From the IMG/VR virus record IMGVR_UViG_3300021961_000037, positions 50,095-114,094 of that record: DNA of 64,000 bases. The stretch is one strand, 5' to 3'. Origin of the DNA: a virus. How positions within the stretch are numbered: the first letter of the stretch is position 1; the number at the start of each line of letters is the position of its first letter. The notes beneath the pieces were generated by a model, which worked only from the letters and a program-made list of their open reading frames with translations, was not told the DNA's origin and did no database searches. Shown in pieces: positions 38,597 to 56,979 of this stretch. The translations under genes were made by a program, and so were the position numbers.

Positions 38597-39673
38597 ATGG
38601 CATTTGAGAGGCTTGGAGCAGACAGGAATCCCGTACAGAAGACGGGAACCGACAAATTGTTCGGTGCTGGCAGCGACGGAACAGTAACCATCTCCACGAA
38701 CACGTCGCTTTCACGCGACATGTATTACGCCAACCTCACTGTGAACTCTGGAATCACGCTTTTTACCAACGGATTCAAGATTTTTGTTAGCGGGAACTTG
38801 GTAAACGACGGCACAATAGGAATGCCTACTGGAACAGCACAGACGACTTCGGTCATGGCAGGAACGACCATGACGAGAATTGACGGTAATGCTGGGTATG
38901 TTTCGGGCGATGCCTTGTCGGGAACAATGACGATTGCCGAGGTCCGTGACATTGAAGCGCTTGTCACGGGCGTAATGCAAAAAGGTGCCACGCGAAGGGT
39001 GTGGTGGTCTGGTGCTACTGGAACTGCTGGCACTAGCGGAACCGCAAACCCCGGTGGTGGCGGAAATGCAACTGCTGGTACTGCGGGAACTGGTGGTTCG
39101 GCAGGTCAGGGCGGTGGCTCCGTTGTCGTTCTCGCCAAGTCAATTAGTGGGTCTGGAACATTTGTGAGCGAAGGAACTGCTGGAACTTCGGGAAATCCAG
39201 GAACCGCTGGAAGCAACGCACCGGGAAACCCAGGGCATAACCCCGGCGGGCATGCTGGCGCACATAATCCTGGCGGTCATGCACAAGGACATAACCCCGG
39301 CGGAACTGGCCATAACCCACCCGGTCACTTCCATCACCCCGGTCACCATCAGGCGCCGAATTGCGGAGTCCATGAAGTTTGGGGCTGCTCGCATCATCAC
39401 CCCGGTCACCACAACCCCGCGCACCAACACACAAACCCTGGAAACTCCTTCTCACATCCAGGAAACCCATTCCACTACTCACATCCAGGAAACCCATTCC
39501 ATTACAGTCACCCCGGCAACCCGTTCCACAACCCATCTTATTCTGGTGGCACTGCCAACCCAGGAAATGCAGGAAACCCAGGAAATGCTGGAAGTCTCGT
39601 TGTTTTGACCCGAGGAATCACTACCCATGTCGCAACCTCCAACTTGACATACGTGGAGGACCTAGATGACTAA
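38597..39673 (+). CDS. Histidine-rich X-Pro-Gly tail adhesin
   Basis: A 358-residue protein. Residues 1-140: beta-solenoid-like head (FGAGSDGTVTISTNTSLSRD, YYANLTVNSGITL) as in the gene before. Residues 140-210: Gly/Thr/Ala-rich strand pair with GGGSVVVLAKSISG. Residues 211-311: an extreme region of NPGGH, HNPGG and HPGH motifs, two Cys (256, 264) and three tandem HPGNPFHYS units; I count 25 His in residues 214-311. Residues 312-358: NPGNAG repeats and a final beta strand. The X-P-G triplets look like collagen-type or polyproline/polyglycine helices, the His could bind metal, and the prolines are possible targets of the nearby prolyl-hydroxylase-like enzymes (inference). Confidence 0.75.
   Translation: MAFERLGADRNPVQKTGTDKLFGAGSDGTVTISTNTSLSRDMYYANLTVNSGITLFTNGFKIFVSGNLVNDGTIGMPTGTAQTTSVMAGTTMTRIDGNAGYVSGDALSGTMTIAEVRDIEALVTGVMQKGATRRVWWSGATGTAGTSGTANPGGGGNATAGTAGTGGSAGQGGGSVVVLAKSISGSGTFVSEGTAGTSGNPGTAGSNAPGNPGHNPGGHAGAHNPGGHAQGHNPGGTGHNPPGHFHHPGHHQAPNCGVHEVWGCSHHHPGHHNPAHQHTNPGNSFSHPGNPFHYSHPGNPFHYSHPGNPFHNPSYSGGTANPGNAGNPGNAGSLVVLTRGITTHVATSNLTYVEDLDD
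39455..39529 (+). repeat. 27-bp tandem repeat coding HPGNPFHYS
   Basis: Two full and one partial copy (starts 39455, 39482, 39509). They encode the His/Pro/aromatic end of the adhesin. Differences between copies are few and mostly silent. Confidence 0.75.
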
Positions 39674-40606: not shown

Positions 40607-42070
40607 ATGCTGCCGAGGGTATGCATTGTAGGTTCTGGAACCTCCGGATTGGTTACCGCCTTGATGTTGAGGGCGTTTTTCCCCAACATCAAGGTGACGG
40701 TTATATCTTCCAAAGACATCGGGATAATTGGTGTCGGCGAGGGTTCTACTGAGCACTGGCGTCATTTTTTTCAGCAGCCATGCGATATAGACGCTGGAGA
40801 GATGGTTGCCCGGTGCGCCGCCACCCATAAATACGGAATCAAATTTGAGGGCTGGACTACACACACTCCAATCTATTACCACAGCATTAGCGGAGAGGGT
40901 CACGGACCAAATAACTTTAACGCTGTTTACTCTTTCGCCCACTTCAACGACTGGTTGCTAACGCCATCAATGATTCCACACCTGGATAATGACATGGTTG
41001 TAGATGACGTCAAGCAACCCCATGGCACCACAAATCAGTTTCACTTTGACACTCATAAACTAAACAACTTTTTGACGTATCTTGCCGAAAAACGTGGCGT
41101 AACATTTGGCGACGGGAAGATTGTAAAAATTGACAGGAATTCAGAAACGGGTTTTATTGAGTCGGTAACAACTGACACAAACATTAAGTGCGAGGCAGAT
41201 TTCTTCGTTGATGCAAGCGGATTTGCAAGAGTGCTGATGAGTAAACTTGTTGAAAACGATGAGTTTGTCAGTTACAGAAAATACCTGCCGTGCGACTCAG
41301 CAGCCGTGTTCCAGACGGAATCTGACCCATCTGGGAAAATCCACCCATATACGAGGGCTCGCGCGATGCCGCATGGCTGGATGTGGGAAATACCGACACA
41401 GGAGCGCAGAGGAAACGGCTATGTATTTGCCTCAGATTTCTGCTCCGACGAGCAGGCAGTCAAGGAACTGTCCGAGGCTCATGGTAGGGACATAGAGCCG
41501 GCAAGAATAATTAGATTCAAGTCTGGCTACTACAAGCACGGTATTGCATTTAACTGTGCGGCTGTCGGTCTTTCTAGTTCATTTGTGGAACCGCTTGAGG
41601 CGACCGCAATAAGCACCAGCATTCAGCAATCACGCATGATTGCGGCAATTTTGCCGACCTTCATGCGTGGCAATAAGGCACAAACAAAGAACTATCAGCA
41701 ACGCTACGAAAGTTTGCTTGAAAATATTGTCACGATGATTTCTCTCCACTACATCTCGGATAGAAATGATTCAGAGATGTGGAAGGCGCAACAACATGCC
41801 GAACTTCCGGAAACACTGAAGGTGCTCCTCGAATTGTGGAAGGAGAGAATGCCCGAAAAATACGATGTTCCGCATTTCGGGTATGAACTGTTTCTTTCAG
41901 AGCATCTTTGGCATGTTGCACAGGGTCAAGGAGTTCTTGATAAGTCTGTTGCCCTGGACCAATTAAACGCCTACTGCTCACATGACCCGTGTGCAAAAAT
42001 TTTCTCCTCCAAAAAACTGCAGGCAGCAGCAACAAGGAAAATTGACCATGCGCTTCTCTATAAGGCGTAA
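40607..42070 (+). CDS. Flavin-dependent (tryptophan-type) halogenase
   Basis: A 487-residue protein, full length for the family. FAD site: GSGTSG (9-14) in the first beta strand-helix; GVGEGST (42-48). The likely catalytic Lys is K75 in CAATHKYGIKFEGW. The halogenase signature W-x-W-x-I-P is present as WMWEIP (258-263), and the conserved Glu motif as VEPLEATAIS. These enzymes use FADH2, O2 and halide to make HOX, which halogenates an aromatic substrate held near the Lys. A flavin reductase is needed and none is seen, so a host reductase would supply FADH2. A cyanophage halogenase (VirX1) is known. Neighbouring oxygenases suggest a joint modification pathway, substrate unknown. Confidence 0.85.
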   Translation: MLPRVCIVGSGTSGLVTALMLRAFFPNIKVTVISSKDIGIIGVGEGSTEHWRHFFQQPCDIDAGEMVARCAATHKYGIKFEGWTTHTPIYYHSISGEGHGPNNFNAVYSFAHFNDWLLTPSMIPHLDNDMVVDDVKQPHGTTNQFHFDTHKLNNFLTYLAEKRGVTFGDGKIVKIDRNSETGFIESVTTDTNIKCEADFFVDASGFARVLMSKLVENDEFVSYRKYLPCDSAAVFQTESDPSGKIHPYTRARAMPHGWMWEIPTQERRGNGYVFASDFCSDEQAVKELSEAHGRDIEPARIIRFKSGYYKHGIAFNCAAVGLSSSFVEPLEATAISTSIQQSRMIAAILPTFMRGNKAQTKNYQQRYESLLENIVTMISLHYISDRNDSEMWKAQQHAELPETLKVLLELWKERMPEKYDVPHFGYELFLSEHLWHVAQGQGVLDKSVALDQLNAYCSHDPCAKIFSSKKLQAAATRKIDHALLYKA

Positions 42071-42908
42071 ATCGCCAACGGTTAAGCCTGGAATCTGGGA
42101 AAACCTTCCAGTCCCAAAACCAAACCAGTTATTTGCCGCCCCTGTTGACAATCGTTTGTGGCATCCGAAATTGGCGATTAGACCATCTCGCTCCAAAACA
42201 CCTGAATGGTTTAAGGATATTCCGCAAGGCGAGGCGAGCCTCAAGCGATGCTACGGGGTTGCAGACTATCTAAGAACTGGATACGTGGTTCCGATGTGGG
42301 CGACGTTGGACGTAAGAATGCCCCTAAATAAATTGGATAAAAGATGGGAAGCACGTTTTGATATACCAGCGTCCCATCTATTTACCGCAGAGATAGCAAC
42401 CGACCTTTCCGAGCAAGACAATAACTACTACTTTAGTTATGAATCATTGATGCGAAATCAATTTCCGATTCACCAAACGGGGAGTGAGTGCCCGGTTGCA
42501 AAACAAAAAAACCGCGAGTCTTCATACCTAAAATTACCAAGTCCCTGGGTGGTGAGAACTGCGCCCGGATGGTCCTCCCTCTTCCTGCCAACCCTCTGGG
42601 AGCCAAATGATGACTATGAGGTTCTTGGAGCCGTGGTGCATACGGATTACTATCCGAACGCCAACTGTGTAATAAACATAAAGACAAACAGACCGCTAAG
42701 GATTGAGGAGGGAACAATCATGCAACACATAATCCCCTTCAAGCGAGACGCATCAATCTTGGAGACAGAGGTAATACGAGGAGACCAAACCGCCCATACA
42801 CTGTTGAGGGATACTGGATTCGGTCCAGTTTTCACAACAAAAGAAGACACGCACGGCGGGTACAAAAAAGAACAACGCAGAATGGATGGATTGGTTTCTG
42901 ATGTATAG
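42048..42908 (+). CDS. Conserved hypothetical protein, DUF6065-like
   Basis: A 286-residue protein; ATG 42048 (MRFSIRRKSPTVKPG) with AAGGA before it, overlapping the halogenase end by 23 bases. Segments LKLPSPWVVRTAPGWSSLFLPT, VVHTDYYPNANCVIN and EEGTIMQHIIPFKRD recall a family of unknown function found beside oxygenases and aminotransferase-like genes in phages and bacteria (my recollection is DUF6065). It looks like a beta-sandwich. Possible role: substrate carrier or binding partner for the oxygenases/halogenase; no catalytic residues can be named. Confidence 0.6.
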   Translation: MRFSIRRKSPTVKPGIWENLPVPKPNQLFAAPVDNRLWHPKLAIRPSRSKTPEWFKDIPQGEASLKRCYGVADYLRTGYVVPMWATLDVRMPLNKLDKRWEARFDIPASHLFTAEIATDLSEQDNNYYFSYESLMRNQFPIHQTGSECPVAKQKNRESSYLKLPSPWVVRTAPGWSSLFLPTLWEPNDDYEVLGAVVHTDYYPNANCVINIKTNRPLRIEEGTIMQHIIPFKRDASILETEVIRGDQTAHTLLRDTGFGPVFTTKEDTHGGYKKEQRRMDGLVSDV

Positions 42909-49586: not shown

Positions 49587-49645
49587 GCCCTTTTATTGTA
49601 GTTGGGCAACGTGATGTAGAATTGTTAAGTTCTTGGGGGTGGTGG

Positions 49646-52600
49646 ATGCGTTCCGGGCGCTTATTGTATATAAATCTCATATTTTTGAGTGCGCTTGCTT
49701 TGGTGCTTATGTTCCTGCCTGTCTCTGCAAGTGCTTCGGATGGCAACAAACTCGTCTTTTCGTGGTCGTCGGCAACAGTCTCCCAGCAAGTGAGTGTTCC
49801 GGAAGGCTGGGCGAGCGCGACCTCGGTAACCGCAACGGTTAGTGCCGCTGAAGCACAGGACTGGAAAGAAGCGTCCGACAAACTCATCATTGGAATCTCC
49901 CTGTATGGAGATGGTGGCGGGTTGATGTATAGCCACGACACAGGGCAAATAACACTTACTGATAACGGGTCATACAACGACTACACATTAAGCGTTACCT
50001 CTGAAGGAGTGGGTTCTGGTTGGGCGGATGTTGCATCTGTAAAAATATCAATCACAGGACAAGATGGCGAGTTATGGGCGGGCAACTATGGAACCGCTGT
50101 TGAGTCCGCATCGCTTCAACTGAATGATGGAACCGAACTTCTTAGCAATACTGAATTCACGTCCAATGCTGGCTGGGTGTCTTCTGCTGGATGGCAAACA
50201 TGTTCTGGTGATTCTGGTTCTCTGCCATGCGTGGGCATAAGCGCAGTTGAGATTGCTGCCGCTGCGACAACCACCACAACGACTACCACAACGGTTCCAG
50301 AGGTTGCGTTGTACTACCCATCTGGACCTCAACTCAATATAAGCAAGTCCACTGTCACCGATGGCGGGTGGTCACTTTGCTACTCGGGAACCTACGGTGC
50401 GACTGCCTCGCTAACCACAATTGAGTCCGACTGCGACGGCGAATACCTCATCCTTGCCGGTGGTCAAACCGGCTCAGACACCCTGATGCTTCTTGCTGCT
50501 GCCCCAAGGTCGGATGTGTTCACAAATACGACAACAGCCCACCTATCCAACGGGTCGTACTGGTACTACGGACGCGACCACAGTTCGTCAATCGGCTTTG
50601 CCCCAAATGCCACGATTCAGTTGAGCAGTGCAGACGTCTATAACACCTCTGACCAATACCGACTCTCCTGGCATACCAACTACTGCGGAAACCTGATGCT
50701 CTGTGGAGGCTGGCGTGTCGGTGCTGTCGTCGGTCTCAACTCAGGAGATTCATACACACGGTATGTGTATGAGTCTTCAGATGGTGCTTCGCCTACGACG
50801 ACTACAACTACTACAACTACTACGACAACTACAACTGTTCCAGCACCGACTTCCATTGAGGTGACCAACCTCTTGGATGACGGGTCAGAGGGAAGTCTTC
50901 GCTGGGCGATTACCCAAGCGAATGGAGCATCTGGTGGAGCCAATGACTCCATCACCTTCGCAGAGGGTCTTACTGGAACCATAACGCTCACATCAAACTT
51001 GCCAAATATCACCGACACCCTGACTATTGATTCCGACGATGCAATAACAATTGCTGGCAACTATCAGATGTACATATCAACCGGAGTGACCGCAACGGTT
51101 AACGACATGGGCTTTAGCCAGTCGTACATAACCAACGAGCGTGGAACCCTGTATGTGAACAGTTGCACCTTTACAAACCTTGGCAACTATGGGGTGGGCA
51201 ATAAGAATGGTGCGACCCTCACCTACATAGATGGAACCACATTTAATGGTGGAACACGAGGAGTCTGGTCAGACTGGGGAAATACGCCAAATCCGTTCAC
51301 CACGGACGACTCTGCATACCAGAACCGAATCTACGTAACAGACTCAACGTTCCAAAATCTGTCAGTTGGAATAGGAACCGAGCGTTCAGTATTTGTTTCT
51401 GGGTCGACATTTACGAATAACTCCACCCACATCAATGCAAGAGGAATAAACAAATACAGGATCACCAACAACACATTTAGCGGTGGAACTAACGGAATAA
51501 TCACGTTCTCCAACATCCCAGCGTGGGAAGGATTCTTTGCCAATAAATCAGTGGATGCAAACAATAGATACATCTCTGGGAATACGTTCACCAATGTTTC
51601 CAACTATGCAATTTATTTGGACGACTACTACGGCAGTGTTCCGGACCAGCAGGGTGCAACGATTAGGGACAACACATGGGACGAGACTGGTGTGTGGGTC
51701 AGTTGGAGGAATGCCAACGGAAGGTACAACGAAACAGAGGTTGACGGTGGAGAGTATCCGTATTATTCGTTGAGCAACACTTCCAGTGCTCCGCCGCCGA
51801 CTACCACGACAACCACAACCACTACAACTACAACAACAACTACAACAACTACTGTCGCTCCCGCTGCGCAGGAAGCGCCTCCCCCGACAACAATTGCTCC
51901 TCAGCCAGTAAGTCCTGAACCTGGGACGACGACAACGACGACCCTTGCCCCTGAGCCCGAGCCTGAGCCTGAGCCCGAGCCTGTTGAGACGACCATTCCC
52001 GAACAGCCCGATGAAGAGATATCACCTGAAGAAGACCAGCCCACGCCATCCGAAACAGGAACAACATTGCCTACTCTTCCTGAGGATGAGACTGACTTTC
52101 CTGACGAAGAAGAGGTGGATATCCCAGCCGATGAAGAAGAACAACAGCCCCAATCGCCAGAACCCCAACCAGAGGAAACATCAGAAGAAGAAGATTTTCC
52201 ATTTGATGTAAATATACCAAATCCAGAACTTGCCCAAGACCTAGAAGACGCTTTGGTTGATATTGGGGACGCATCAGCCGATGAACTTGATGAAGTCCTG
52301 TCCGACCTTATTGACGAAATACCTGACGACGAACTACTTGAATCCCTAGATGACGTGGTTGAGGCACTTCTAGAGAACGTTCCGGACGACCAGATTGACG
52401 AGGTGCTCGACAGTCTTGTTGAGGCAATCTTTGAGAACGTCCCGGAAGACGAGATTGCAGAAGCCCTAGAAGAAGTCATTGACGTTATTTCCGATGGGGT
52501 GAACGTAGATACCCTGACCGAAGAGCAAAAGCACGAAATTGCCACCGTAGTTGAAGCCATTATCGCCTCTGGCGTAACGGAAGAAGTCGCCGAAACGCTT

Positions 52601-53248
52601 GCCTCAAACGAGGCAGTTCTTGAGTCAATAAACACCGATGAGGCCGAGCAGGTGTTTGAGGTAATTGACGCAGAGGATTTGACCGATGAAGTAGCAGAAG
52701 AAATTGTGGCTGCCGTTCAGGATGCCCCAAGCGACATCCGTGAGGTCTTTGAAGATGTTGTTGACCTGTTTCAGGGTGTGTTTGACGATTATGTGATGCT
52801 TGGTTCAACAATTGATGTTGGTCAACGCCGAACCGTTGTTGCCGTTACCGCACTAACGACCGCCGTTGGTGGTGCTATTGCCTCTGGTGGGTCGCTTGGT
52901 GGTAGCCCATCTGGGGGGTCATCACCTTCCTCGCCGAACAATCCAAACGATGCGGCGCGAAAGGAAGATGAAGAAGAGGAACCTTCAGGAGAGATTGCTG
53001 GTGATGGGGTAGAATGGGTGAGGAACATACGAATCTTCAAGTATGTAAATGGGGTGAGAGTGGTGGATTGGAAAGCATTTATCAAGAAATTTGGTTACGG
53101 TGTTATGAATCTCGGGTTCACACTTGCTGGTTCCCTCGTGGTTTATTTGACACTTTCTGGGCCTATCCAAAGAATCGCTGGAATCACCACGCTTGCGGCG
53201 TTTGGTGCTGCGATGTGGATTCACATGAAGGAACCTGAAGGCGAATAA
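49646..53248 (+). CDS. Giant exported beta-helix protein with Thr linkers and C-terminal membrane anchor
   Basis: A 1200-residue protein; ATG 49646 with GGGGGTGG just before is preferred over TTG 49622. Residues 1-31 are a signal peptide (basic start, LIFLSALALVLMFLPVSASAS). Then two beta domains, separated by pure Thr runs ending VP (near 50270, 50800 and 51795). A right-handed beta-helix lies at about residues 415-680 (YVNSCTFTNLGNYG, ITNNTFSGGTNGI). Next come Pro/Glu-rich linkers (EPEPEPEPEPV), four acidic ~20-residue helical repeats (near 52260-52500), and a C-terminal end with two membrane segments. The protein is probably displayed on the infected cell surface; possible roles are adhesion, polysaccharide binding or superinfection block. 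It looks acquired from an actinobacterial host. Confidence 0.75.
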   Translation: MRSGRLLYINLIFLSALALVLMFLPVSASASDGNKLVFSWSSATVSQQVSVPEGWASATSVTATVSAAEAQDWKEASDKLIIGISLYGDGGGLMYSHDTGQITLTDNGSYNDYTLSVTSEGVGSGWADVASVKISITGQDGELWAGNYGTAVESASLQLNDGTELLSNTEFTSNAGWVSSAGWQTCSGDSGSLPCVGISAVEIAAAATTTTTTTTTVPEVALYYPSGPQLNISKSTVTDGGWSLCYSGTYGATASLTTIESDCDGEYLILAGGQTGSDTLMLLAAAPRSDVFTNTTTAHLSNGSYWYYGRDHSSSIGFAPNATIQLSSADVYNTSDQYRLSWHTNYCGNLMLCGGWRVGAVVGLNSGDSYTRYVYESSDGASPTTTTTTTTTTTTTTVPAPTSIEVTNLLDDGSEGSLRWAITQANGASGGANDSITFAEGLTGTITLTSNLPNITDTLTIDSDDAITIAGNYQMYISTGVTATVNDMGFSQSYITNERGTLYVNSCTFTNLGNYGVGNKNGATLTYIDGTTFNGGTRGVWSDWGNTPNPFTTDDSAYQNRIYVTDSTFQNLSVGIGTERSVFVSGSTFTNNSTHINARGINKYRITNNTFSGGTNGIITFSNIPAWEGFFANKSVDANNRYISGNTFTNVSNYAIYLDDYYGSVPDQQGATIRDNTWDETGVWVSWRNANGRYNETEVDGGEYPYYSLSNTSSAPPPTTTTTTTTTTTTTTTTTTVAPAAQEAPPPTTIAPQPVSPEPGTTTTTTLAPEPEPEPEPEPVETTIPEQPDEEISPEEDQPTPSETGTTLPTLPEDETDFPDEEEVDIPADEEEQQPQSPEPQPEETSEEEDFPFDVNIPNPELAQDLEDALVDIGDASADELDEVLSDLIDEIPDDELLESLDDVVEALLENVPDDQIDEVLDSLVEAIFENVPEDEIAEALEEVIDVISDGVNVDTLTEEQKHEIATVVEAIIASGVTEEVAETLASNEAVLESINTDEAEQVFEVIDAEDLTDEVAEEIVAAVQDAPSDIREVFEDVVDLFQGVFDDYVMLGSTIDVGQRRTVVAVTALTTAVGGAIASGGSLGGSPSGGSSPSSPNNPNDAARKEDEEEEPSGEIAGDGVEWVRNIRIFKYVNGVRVVDWKAFIKKFGYGVMNLGFTLAGSLVVYLTLSGPIQRIAGITTLAAFGAAMWIHMKEPEGE

Positions 53249-55560: not shown

Positions 55561-56979
55561 ATGCTTAAATATATTTTGGCTGTCTCGCTAAGCGCATCAG
55601 CCGTAGTATCGCAACCACTAGAAAATGACAGTGGGTGGAGACCTGCGTGGGGTCTTGACAGAATCAACCAGCGCACTTTGCCACTTGACGACATATACAC
55701 CCACGACCTCACTGGCTCTGGGGTGGATGTTTATGTATTTGATTCTGGAATAAATTCGTCGCACGAAGAGTTCGGTGGCAGAGTTTCTGATGGTTTCACT
55801 GTAATAGACGACGGGCATGGGACGGAAGATTGCTCAGGACATGGAAGCCATACGGCAAGCCTTGTCGGTGGAGAAACATATGGTGTCGCCAAAGATGTCA
55901 ATTTGATACCAGTTCGTGTCCTGAACTGCAGTAATGGAAACGGCTCCAGCGCAACACTTTACACAGCGATTGATTGGATTATTGAACACCACGAAGATGG
56001 GTCGCCAGCAATAGTGAACATGAGCATCGGCATGCTCAAATCAACAGCATTTAACGAGGCTATGCGTTCATTGATTGACGATGGTCTTATCGTCGTTGGG
56101 GCTGCTGGCAATCAGGGCAGAGATGCGTGTTCGTATTCTCCAGCGTCCGAACCAATGATTATTTCTGTTGGGGGAACAGATAAAACCGATGTTCGTGGAA
56201 CACAGTCAAACTATGGAGCATGTGTAGATATTTTTGCTCCGGGCTGGGATTTGGTCGGTGCATGGGTTGGTGGGGACGATGTCTATCGGTCAAGTAGCGG
56301 AACGTCAAATGCTTCACCAATCGTCAGCGGAATTGTTGCTCTAATGCTTGAAGACGACCCGACAATGACACAGGATGATGTTGCCAACCTTCTCATTGAC
56401 ACGGCGACAGTGGACGCACTCTCTGGGCTTGGGGATGGAAGCCCAAACCTTCTTGCTTTCACATACATGTTGGATTCCGTCGAAGCGTCTGAAATTACTA
56501 CGACAACCACAACTACCACTACCACAACGACGGTTCCGCCAACAACCACAACCACCGCTTTGACGACAACCACAACCGTTCCAGCAACCACAACCGCACC
56601 GGAAGCATCTGGCCCCTCATCTGATTCTGGCGGTTCAGAGAGTGTTGAATCCGAGGGCGGTCAAGACAACCCACAGGAAGACACCAGAGAGGTGGCAGTT
56701 ACCACAACCACCACAACCACTACGACAACCACGACAACCACAACGGTTGCCAACACCCCCAAAATCACCGATGAGCCGATCACGACAACGACAGTCGCAA
56801 AAACCCCACTAACCAAGAATCAAATCAAATGTTTACGGCTATTCAAAAACCCAAAGAACATTTCATCAAAACAATTGAAGTTGAAATTCAGGAAATTCAA
56901 ATGCGCTAGGGTGAATCTTGTAAAAGAAACGGTAGGTGCACACAATGGCGACAAAAAGACGGAAAGCAAGAAGAAATAG
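55561..56979 (+). CDS. Exported S8 serine protease (subtilase, proteinase K-like)
   Basis: A 472-residue protein. Short signal peptide (residues 1-~17), then at once the catalytic domain: D61 in VYVFDSGIN, H94 in CSGHGSHTAS, N184 in AAGNQG (oxyanion hole) and S249 in SSSGTSNASP. The usual ~80-residue I9 propeptide is missing. After residue ~305 come Thr-rich linkers with VP ends, an acidic Ser/Gly stretch, a second Thr run, and a basic C-terminal ~60 residues with two Cys. Probably acts outside the membrane, on host surface proteins or to help release. The linkers are like those of the protein at 49646. Confidence 0.85.
   Translation: MLKYILAVSLSASAVVSQPLENDSGWRPAWGLDRINQRTLPLDDIYTHDLTGSGVDVYVFDSGINSSHEEFGGRVSDGFTVIDDGHGTEDCSGHGSHTASLVGGETYGVAKDVNLIPVRVLNCSNGNGSSATLYTAIDWIIEHHEDGSPAIVNMSIGMLKSTAFNEAMRSLIDDGLIVVGAAGNQGRDACSYSPASEPMIISVGGTDKTDVRGTQSNYGACVDIFAPGWDLVGAWVGGDDVYRSSSGTSNASPIVSGIVALMLEDDPTMTQDDVANLLIDTATVDALSGLGDGSPNLLAFTYMLDSVEASEITTTTTTTTTTTTVPPTTTTTALTTTTTVPATTTAPEASGPSSDSGGSESVESEGGQDNPQEDTREVAVTTTTTTTTTTTTTTTVANTPKITDEPITTTTVAKTPLTKNQIKCLRLFKNPKNISSKQLKLKFRKFKCARVNLVKETVGAHNGDKKTESKKK

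Follow-up and report, generated by a model that had tools for sequence, protein, structure and literature searches.

A phage flavin-dependent halogenase gene linked to putative histidine-rich tail adhesins

Enzymes of the flavin-dependent halogenase kind put chlorine, bromine or iodine onto aromatic rings. What does such an enzyme do in a phage, and on what does it act? We examined this for a halogenase gene, here called HAL, in a 64,000-nucleotide window comprising bases 50,095-114,094 of the 114,094-base IMG/VR record IMGVR_UViG_3300021961_000037. The record encodes a contractile sheath, tail fibres, a GH25 lysozyme, a VanY-type peptidase and two WhiB regulators (PF02467, matched among 14 control genomes only by the Corynebacterium rings). 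Together, these features fit an actinobacterial myovirus, and the two WhiB genes support the actinobacterial type that the original prediction gave this phage. No flavin reductase had been seen near HAL, and the whole 114-kb record contains no match to the reductase family PF01613, so reduced flavin would be supplied by the host. Farther along the window, two genes encode likely secreted or surface proteins, each with a possible signal sequence; one is a large Thr-rich repeat protein, the other a subtilase with linkers of the TTTTVP type (Table 1).

The HAL frame runs uninterrupted from its ATG through the stop codon. It matches Pfam Trp_halogenase (PF04820) over its full length (329 bits, cut-off 21, E 6e-98) and PHROG 2928, 'tryptophan halogenase' (E 1.4e-101). 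All of the halogenase motifs first read from the sequence were located, and in an alignment with 29 relatives G9, G11, G14, K75, W258, P263, E328, P329, L330 and E331 are invariant, which argues that the motifs are not there by chance. Structure comparison of the AlphaFold model (pLDDT 93) gave Z scores of 44.4 with PyrH (over 478 residues), 42.5 with PrnA, about 40.8 with RebH, 39.2 with MibH, 36.6 with VirX1 (21% identity) and 26.9 with CndH/Bmp2. Judged by its sequence and predicted fold, the window gene is an ordinary member of the known flavin-dependent halogenase family.

PrnA, RebH and PyrH belong to natural-product pathways, where their substrate is free tryptophan. They share PF04820, the catalytic Lys and Glu, the WxWxIP motif and the fold with HAL, but they are only about 25-27% identical to it, the window gene lies in no natural-product pathway, and PrnA and RebH form a separate clade. 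BrvH and Xcc4156 resemble HAL in length and fold, and we know of no natural substrate for either; they have no phage adhesin, and BrvH belongs to a separate, mostly bacterial clade.

Phylogenetic analysis by maximum likelihood (86 sequences; a short search with SH-aLRT support and no bootstrap) placed HAL within a virus-only clade of 53 entries (SH-aLRT 99), inside which its own subclade holds 34 (SH-aLRT 99). PrnA, RebH, BrvH and VirX1 all fall outside the virus-only clade. This position is consistent with a halogenase, and the proposal of a phage-encoded flavin-dependent halogenase thus holds by family, motifs, predicted fold and tree position. VirX1 was considered as the nearest relative of HAL and ruled out by the tree, in which it groups with S-WAM1 and the second halogenase of Syn10, nearer the bacterial tryptophan halogenases. 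The best 'bacterial' match to HAL (L099, PBNR01000075.1; 41%) is a contig of a 'Gammaproteobacteria' MAG on which the phage adhesin-halogenase module is present in full, and we therefore rejected its bacterial origin and treat it as viral sequence binned in the MAG. A bacterial relative from Microbulbifer (L103, 3127-6470) adjoins SapC and a Cupin_8 oxygenase and follows a large ORF, presumably a TonB-dependent receptor.

Viral halogenases are not rare, contrary to the original prediction. HAL matches 82 records of the phage collection, mostly cyanophages, and our IMG/VR scan yielded at least 585 confirmed relatives; a published survey found the gene in 20 of 153 cyanophages (PMC10452541). Several marine contigs (L060, L062, L068, L069, L071, L079, L080, L082 and L089) carry three to five clustered halogenase genes amid many 2OG-Fe(II) oxygenases.

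Profile matches confirmed that HAL adjoins 2OG-Fe(II) oxygenases, as had been noted; the earlier reading of this context overlooked the conserved association of the gene with a Gly/His-rich tail adhesin, the most telling feature of the locus (Table 1). The HID...H pattern of the family-8 protein suggests a further 2OG-type oxygenase. The labels of PHROG 274, 2297, 3531 and 2954 ('DNA endonuclease (V)', 'ferrochelatase') seem misleading, since members in the window and in L003 match or resemble 2OG-Fe(II) oxygenases. One minus-strand neighbour of 190 residues may be a degenerate oxygenase.

Table 1 Features of the HAL module and other genes in the window
Feature	Position	Strand	Remarks
Repetitive tail-fibre protein, 718 aa	35338-37494	+	Upstream of module
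Small conserved module protein fam5, 120 aa	37496-37858	+	PHROG 20100
Gly-rich adhesin paralogue, 245 aa	37858-38595	+	Without His-rich insert
Adhesin-like tail protein, 358 aa	38597-39673	+	Gly-rich ends; candidate substrate
Insert of adhesin-like protein	about 39173-39592		Hypervariable, His/Asn/Pro/Gly-rich
Small conserved module protein fam6, 102 aa	39666-39974	+	
2OG-Fe(II) oxygenase, 200 aa	40000-40602	+	PF13640, HVD...H kept; directly 5' of HAL
HAL, flavin-dependent halogenase, 487 aa	40607-42070	+	PF04820 / PHROG 2928, motifs intact
HAL GSGTSG (GxGxxG)	40631-40648		Residues 9-14
HAL Lys motif THKYGI			Residues 73-78, with catalytic Lys75
HAL WMWEIP	41378-41395		Residues 258-263
HAL FVEPLEAT	41582-41605		Residues 326-333, with catalytic Glu328
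P7084 protein	42048-42908	+	PHROG 7084; predicted dUTPase-like fold; listed ORF begins at 41982, invariant Met23 indicates start at 42048
Conserved module protein fam9, 155 aa	42886-43353	+	
2OG-Fe(II) oxygenase, 235 aa	43350-44057	+	PF13640, HHD...H kept
Family-8 protein, 216 aa	44054-44704	+	PHROG 2954 'ferrochelatase'; HID...H pattern
P7084-related protein, 250 aa	44714-45466	+	PHROG 17480/7084
2OG-Fe(II) oxygenase family member, 251 aa	45674-46429	-	PHROG 2297 'DNA endonuclease'; HID/HVD motifs
Protein of 190 aa	46430-47002	-	Beside minus-strand 2OG gene; without HxD/E motif
2OG-Fe(II) oxygenase, 176 aa	49056-49586	-	PF13640, E 2e-15
Large Thr-rich repeat protein	49622-53248		Possible signal sequence
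Subtilase with TTTTVP-type linkers	55561-56979		Possible signal sequence

The gene order of the module is conserved. It is the same in L002, whose halogenase is 74% identical to HAL and which has a glycosyltransferase-like gene downstream, and it recurs with variations in IMG/VR loci L019-L056, with halogenase identity down to about 41%. Pairwise distances of HAL co-vary with those of P7084 (Mantel r 0.86), the 2OG oxygenase (0.70) and the adhesin N-terminus (0.52), and none of these values was reached in 999 permutations. The directly 3' neighbour of HAL is P7084 in most modules.

We infer the tail-adhesin role of the 358-residue product from its place after the tail-fibre genes and because homologues in Halorubrum viruses carry the annotation 'putative adhesin'; the protein probably grips the host. 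Its histidines are concentrated in the hypervariable insert (25 of 26, with 21 in a single 80-residue stretch), which contains repeats such as HNPGG and SHPGNPFHY. In an earlier dereplicated set of 44 adhesins, His accounted for 16.1% of insert residues and 0.7% of residues elsewhere, a description rather than a test because the insert is bounded by its own His content; Trp did not differ. We scanned IMG/VR blind to the halogenase, with the adhesin N-terminus alone as query, and called an adhesin His-rich if some 80-residue stretch held at least 7 His. Of the 61 dereplicated adhesins with 300 or more residues, 58 were His-rich, and in 55 of these 58 the locus also held a halogenase; the remaining three loci end nearby, so that every His-rich adhesin locus with enough flank (55/55) carries the gene. 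These blind scans brought back the module.

A third scan, seeded with a halovirus adhesin, gave a pooled dereplicated set of 94 adhesins, with the halogenase scored within 8 kb. Median His content was 6.7% in the 59 adhesins with a halogenase and 0.7% in the 35 without (AUC 1.00), and the separation persisted against the 12 halogenase-free adhesins that retain P7084 or 2OG genes (AUC 0.99). Trp (AUC 0.53) and Tyr (AUC 0.37) were not enriched with the halogenase, and both were dropped as discriminating residues; Pro was also higher (AUC 0.89). In two complete Halorubrum virus genomes, an annotated adhesin (His 0-0.5%) and P7084 are both encoded, whereas PF04820 has no match. Five adhesins were discordant, including L262 (His-poor with a halogenase) and L374, L382 and L390 (mildly His-rich without one). 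Halogenase-free module variants were seen in L390, L403 and L392; L390 has a Tyr/Asn-rich adhesin insert and a weak FkbM-methyltransferase-like gene between the oxygenases and P7084. Alongside some phage halogenases (Syn1, S-PM2, HTVC008M and Campylobacter phages) no adhesin was recognised. A tree of the adhesin N-termini shows just three switches between presence and absence of the halogenase, which amounts to two to three independent contrasts, and the association could therefore reflect a single historical coupling. Histidine as the halogenation target is thus suggested by a correlation drawn from few independent events.

A second system shows the same pairing. VirX1 (PDB 6QGM) is CPUG_00131 of cyanophage Syn10, identical over 443 residues, and its gene adjoins a second halogenase gene. 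Upstream lie Gly_rich_2 (PF21722) tail-tip proteins with His-containing tips that are unrelated to the window adhesin, and downstream lie P7084 and a 2OG gene. All 11 isolated cyanophages (20 records) with this tip family have a halogenase within 2.8 kb, although these phages are related and do not represent 11 independent events. The family was located by tblastn in the phage collection (a low-complexity pattern scan gave only 11 loci), and IMG/VR loci L413-L416 agree with the pairing. We found no halogenase-free member of this tip family, so its His enrichment has no control. HAL and VirX1 are thus alike in enzyme family, fold and proximity to Gly-rich tail genes, P7084 and a 2OG gene, and differ in halogenase clade and tail-tip family, the host of the VirX1 phage being Synechococcus. 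The same pairing recurs with two families of adhesin and in two clades of halogenase.

On these grounds, we lean towards the view that HAL is a working halogenase that modifies the tail adhesin of its own phage as virions mature. Enzymes of this family oxidise halide via a flavin hydroperoxide and transfer it through the active-site Lys. With flavin reduced by the host, HAL would form the hydroperoxide from FADH2 and O2 and oxidise a halide with it; Lys75 would bear the electrophilic halogen, and Glu328 would help to activate an electron-rich ring in the hypervariable insert of the adhesin. Histidine is the candidate target residue because adhesins with a neighbouring halogenase can be told almost completely from those lacking one by their His content, but not by Trp or Tyr. 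Hydroxylation of the adhesin insert (at Pro, Asn or His) is probably the task of the 2OG-Fe(II) oxygenases, P7084 would assist the modification, and the altered insert may change host binding.

Halogenation of peptide-bound Trp by flavin-dependent enzymes has precedents: MibH, SrpI and ChlH halogenate ribosomally made peptides (PMC12518702, PMC10858898). These enzymes modify Trp of peptide natural products, whereas Trp is not enriched in the adhesins linked to HAL. Histidine does not figure in a 2025 review of peptide halogenation, and we know of no enzymatic halogenation of a peptide His.

HAL and the 2OG oxygenases might instead make a halogenated, hydroxylated metabolite or decorate host or phage glycans, their tail location reflecting a build-up of accessory genes. 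Halogenase genes (prnA) have been known in cyanophages since at least 2010, with a role called speculative (PMC2984593; see also PMC10452541). Iyer et al. proposed in 2021 that a cyanophage cluster of halogenase, 2OG and carbamoyltransferase genes makes a metabolite or decorates polysaccharide (PMC7824862), and the cluster resembles the HAL module in joining a phage halogenase to 2OG and cupin-like oxygenases. The marine islands of multiple halogenase and 2OG genes, the acceptance of many small aromatics by VirX1 (PMC8407142) and the glycosyltransferase-like gene of L002 would also suit such a role. However, the published cluster includes carbamoyltransferases and a methylase, none of which was recognised in the HAL module, and no link to an adhesin was seen there (PMC7824862); nor was any precursor-making gene recognised in the window module. 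HAL also tracks His-rich adhesins over divergent loci, and the pairing extends to two unrelated adhesin families, which would be unexpected for a roaming metabolite pathway. We consider a small-molecule or glycan role rather unlikely.

Less probable still is that a protein with the halogenase fold serves as a protein-directed monooxygenase, hydroxylating or cross-linking a side chain of the adhesin (aromatic or histidine) without halogenating it. The hydroxylase-rich surroundings would suit this, as would a weak match to the NCBIfam flavin monooxygenase QhpG, which at 41 bits lies far below the cut-off of 240. Against it, HAL keeps Lys75, Glu328 and WMWEIP, the first two being invariant among relatives, and its fold is much nearer to PyrH, PrnA and VirX1 than to the other flavoenzymes listed.

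P7084 raises the question of whether the module acts on nucleotides or phage DNA, with HAL halogenating a base, the 2OG enzymes oxidising it and P7084, so often directly 3' of HAL, handling the nucleotide. The P7084 model resembles dUTPase (best Z 9.8 over 119 residues, 2.2 A; best Foldseek E only 6e-4), but its consensus as read by eye (TDYYHxxN and GTPLxHxIPFKR) appears to lack the canonical catalytic motifs of dUTPases. The profile matches of the 2OG enzymes are to PF13640, and no TET/JBP match turned up. P7084 is also found with adhesins that have no neighbouring halogenase, including in haloarchaeal viruses (L331, L332). That it tracks the adhesin rather than HAL speaks against nucleotide chemistry, which we regard as very improbable, and suggests an assembly or adaptor protein. 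That HAL is a functionless passenger is barely credible: the frame and catalytic residues are intact in all aligned relatives, gene order is kept and distances co-vary.

Modification of the tail adhesin by HAL thus remains the reading we prefer. Our search brought up no publication that connects halogenases with phage tail fibres, which is weak evidence as subscription journals lay mostly outside it. The pairing of HAL with His-rich tail adhesins appears to be undescribed so far, apparently placing a known enzyme family in an undescribed protein-modification context. More tentatively, and short of calling it probable, we propose that a widespread phage system post-translationally halogenates (probably at histidine) and hydroxylates the hypervariable tips of tail adhesins, and that this is also the natural role of VirX1-type enzymes. 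Viral halogenases may act on the attachment protein of the very virus that encodes them, and the linkage offers a concrete, testable substrate for many of them, including the characterised VirX1. If true, the system would represent a pathway of protein halogenation directed at a receptor-binding protein of the virion, and phages would offer enzymes for the modification of His-rich polypeptides. Phages would then chemically widen the amino-acid alphabet at their host-facing surface, with consequences for host recognition.
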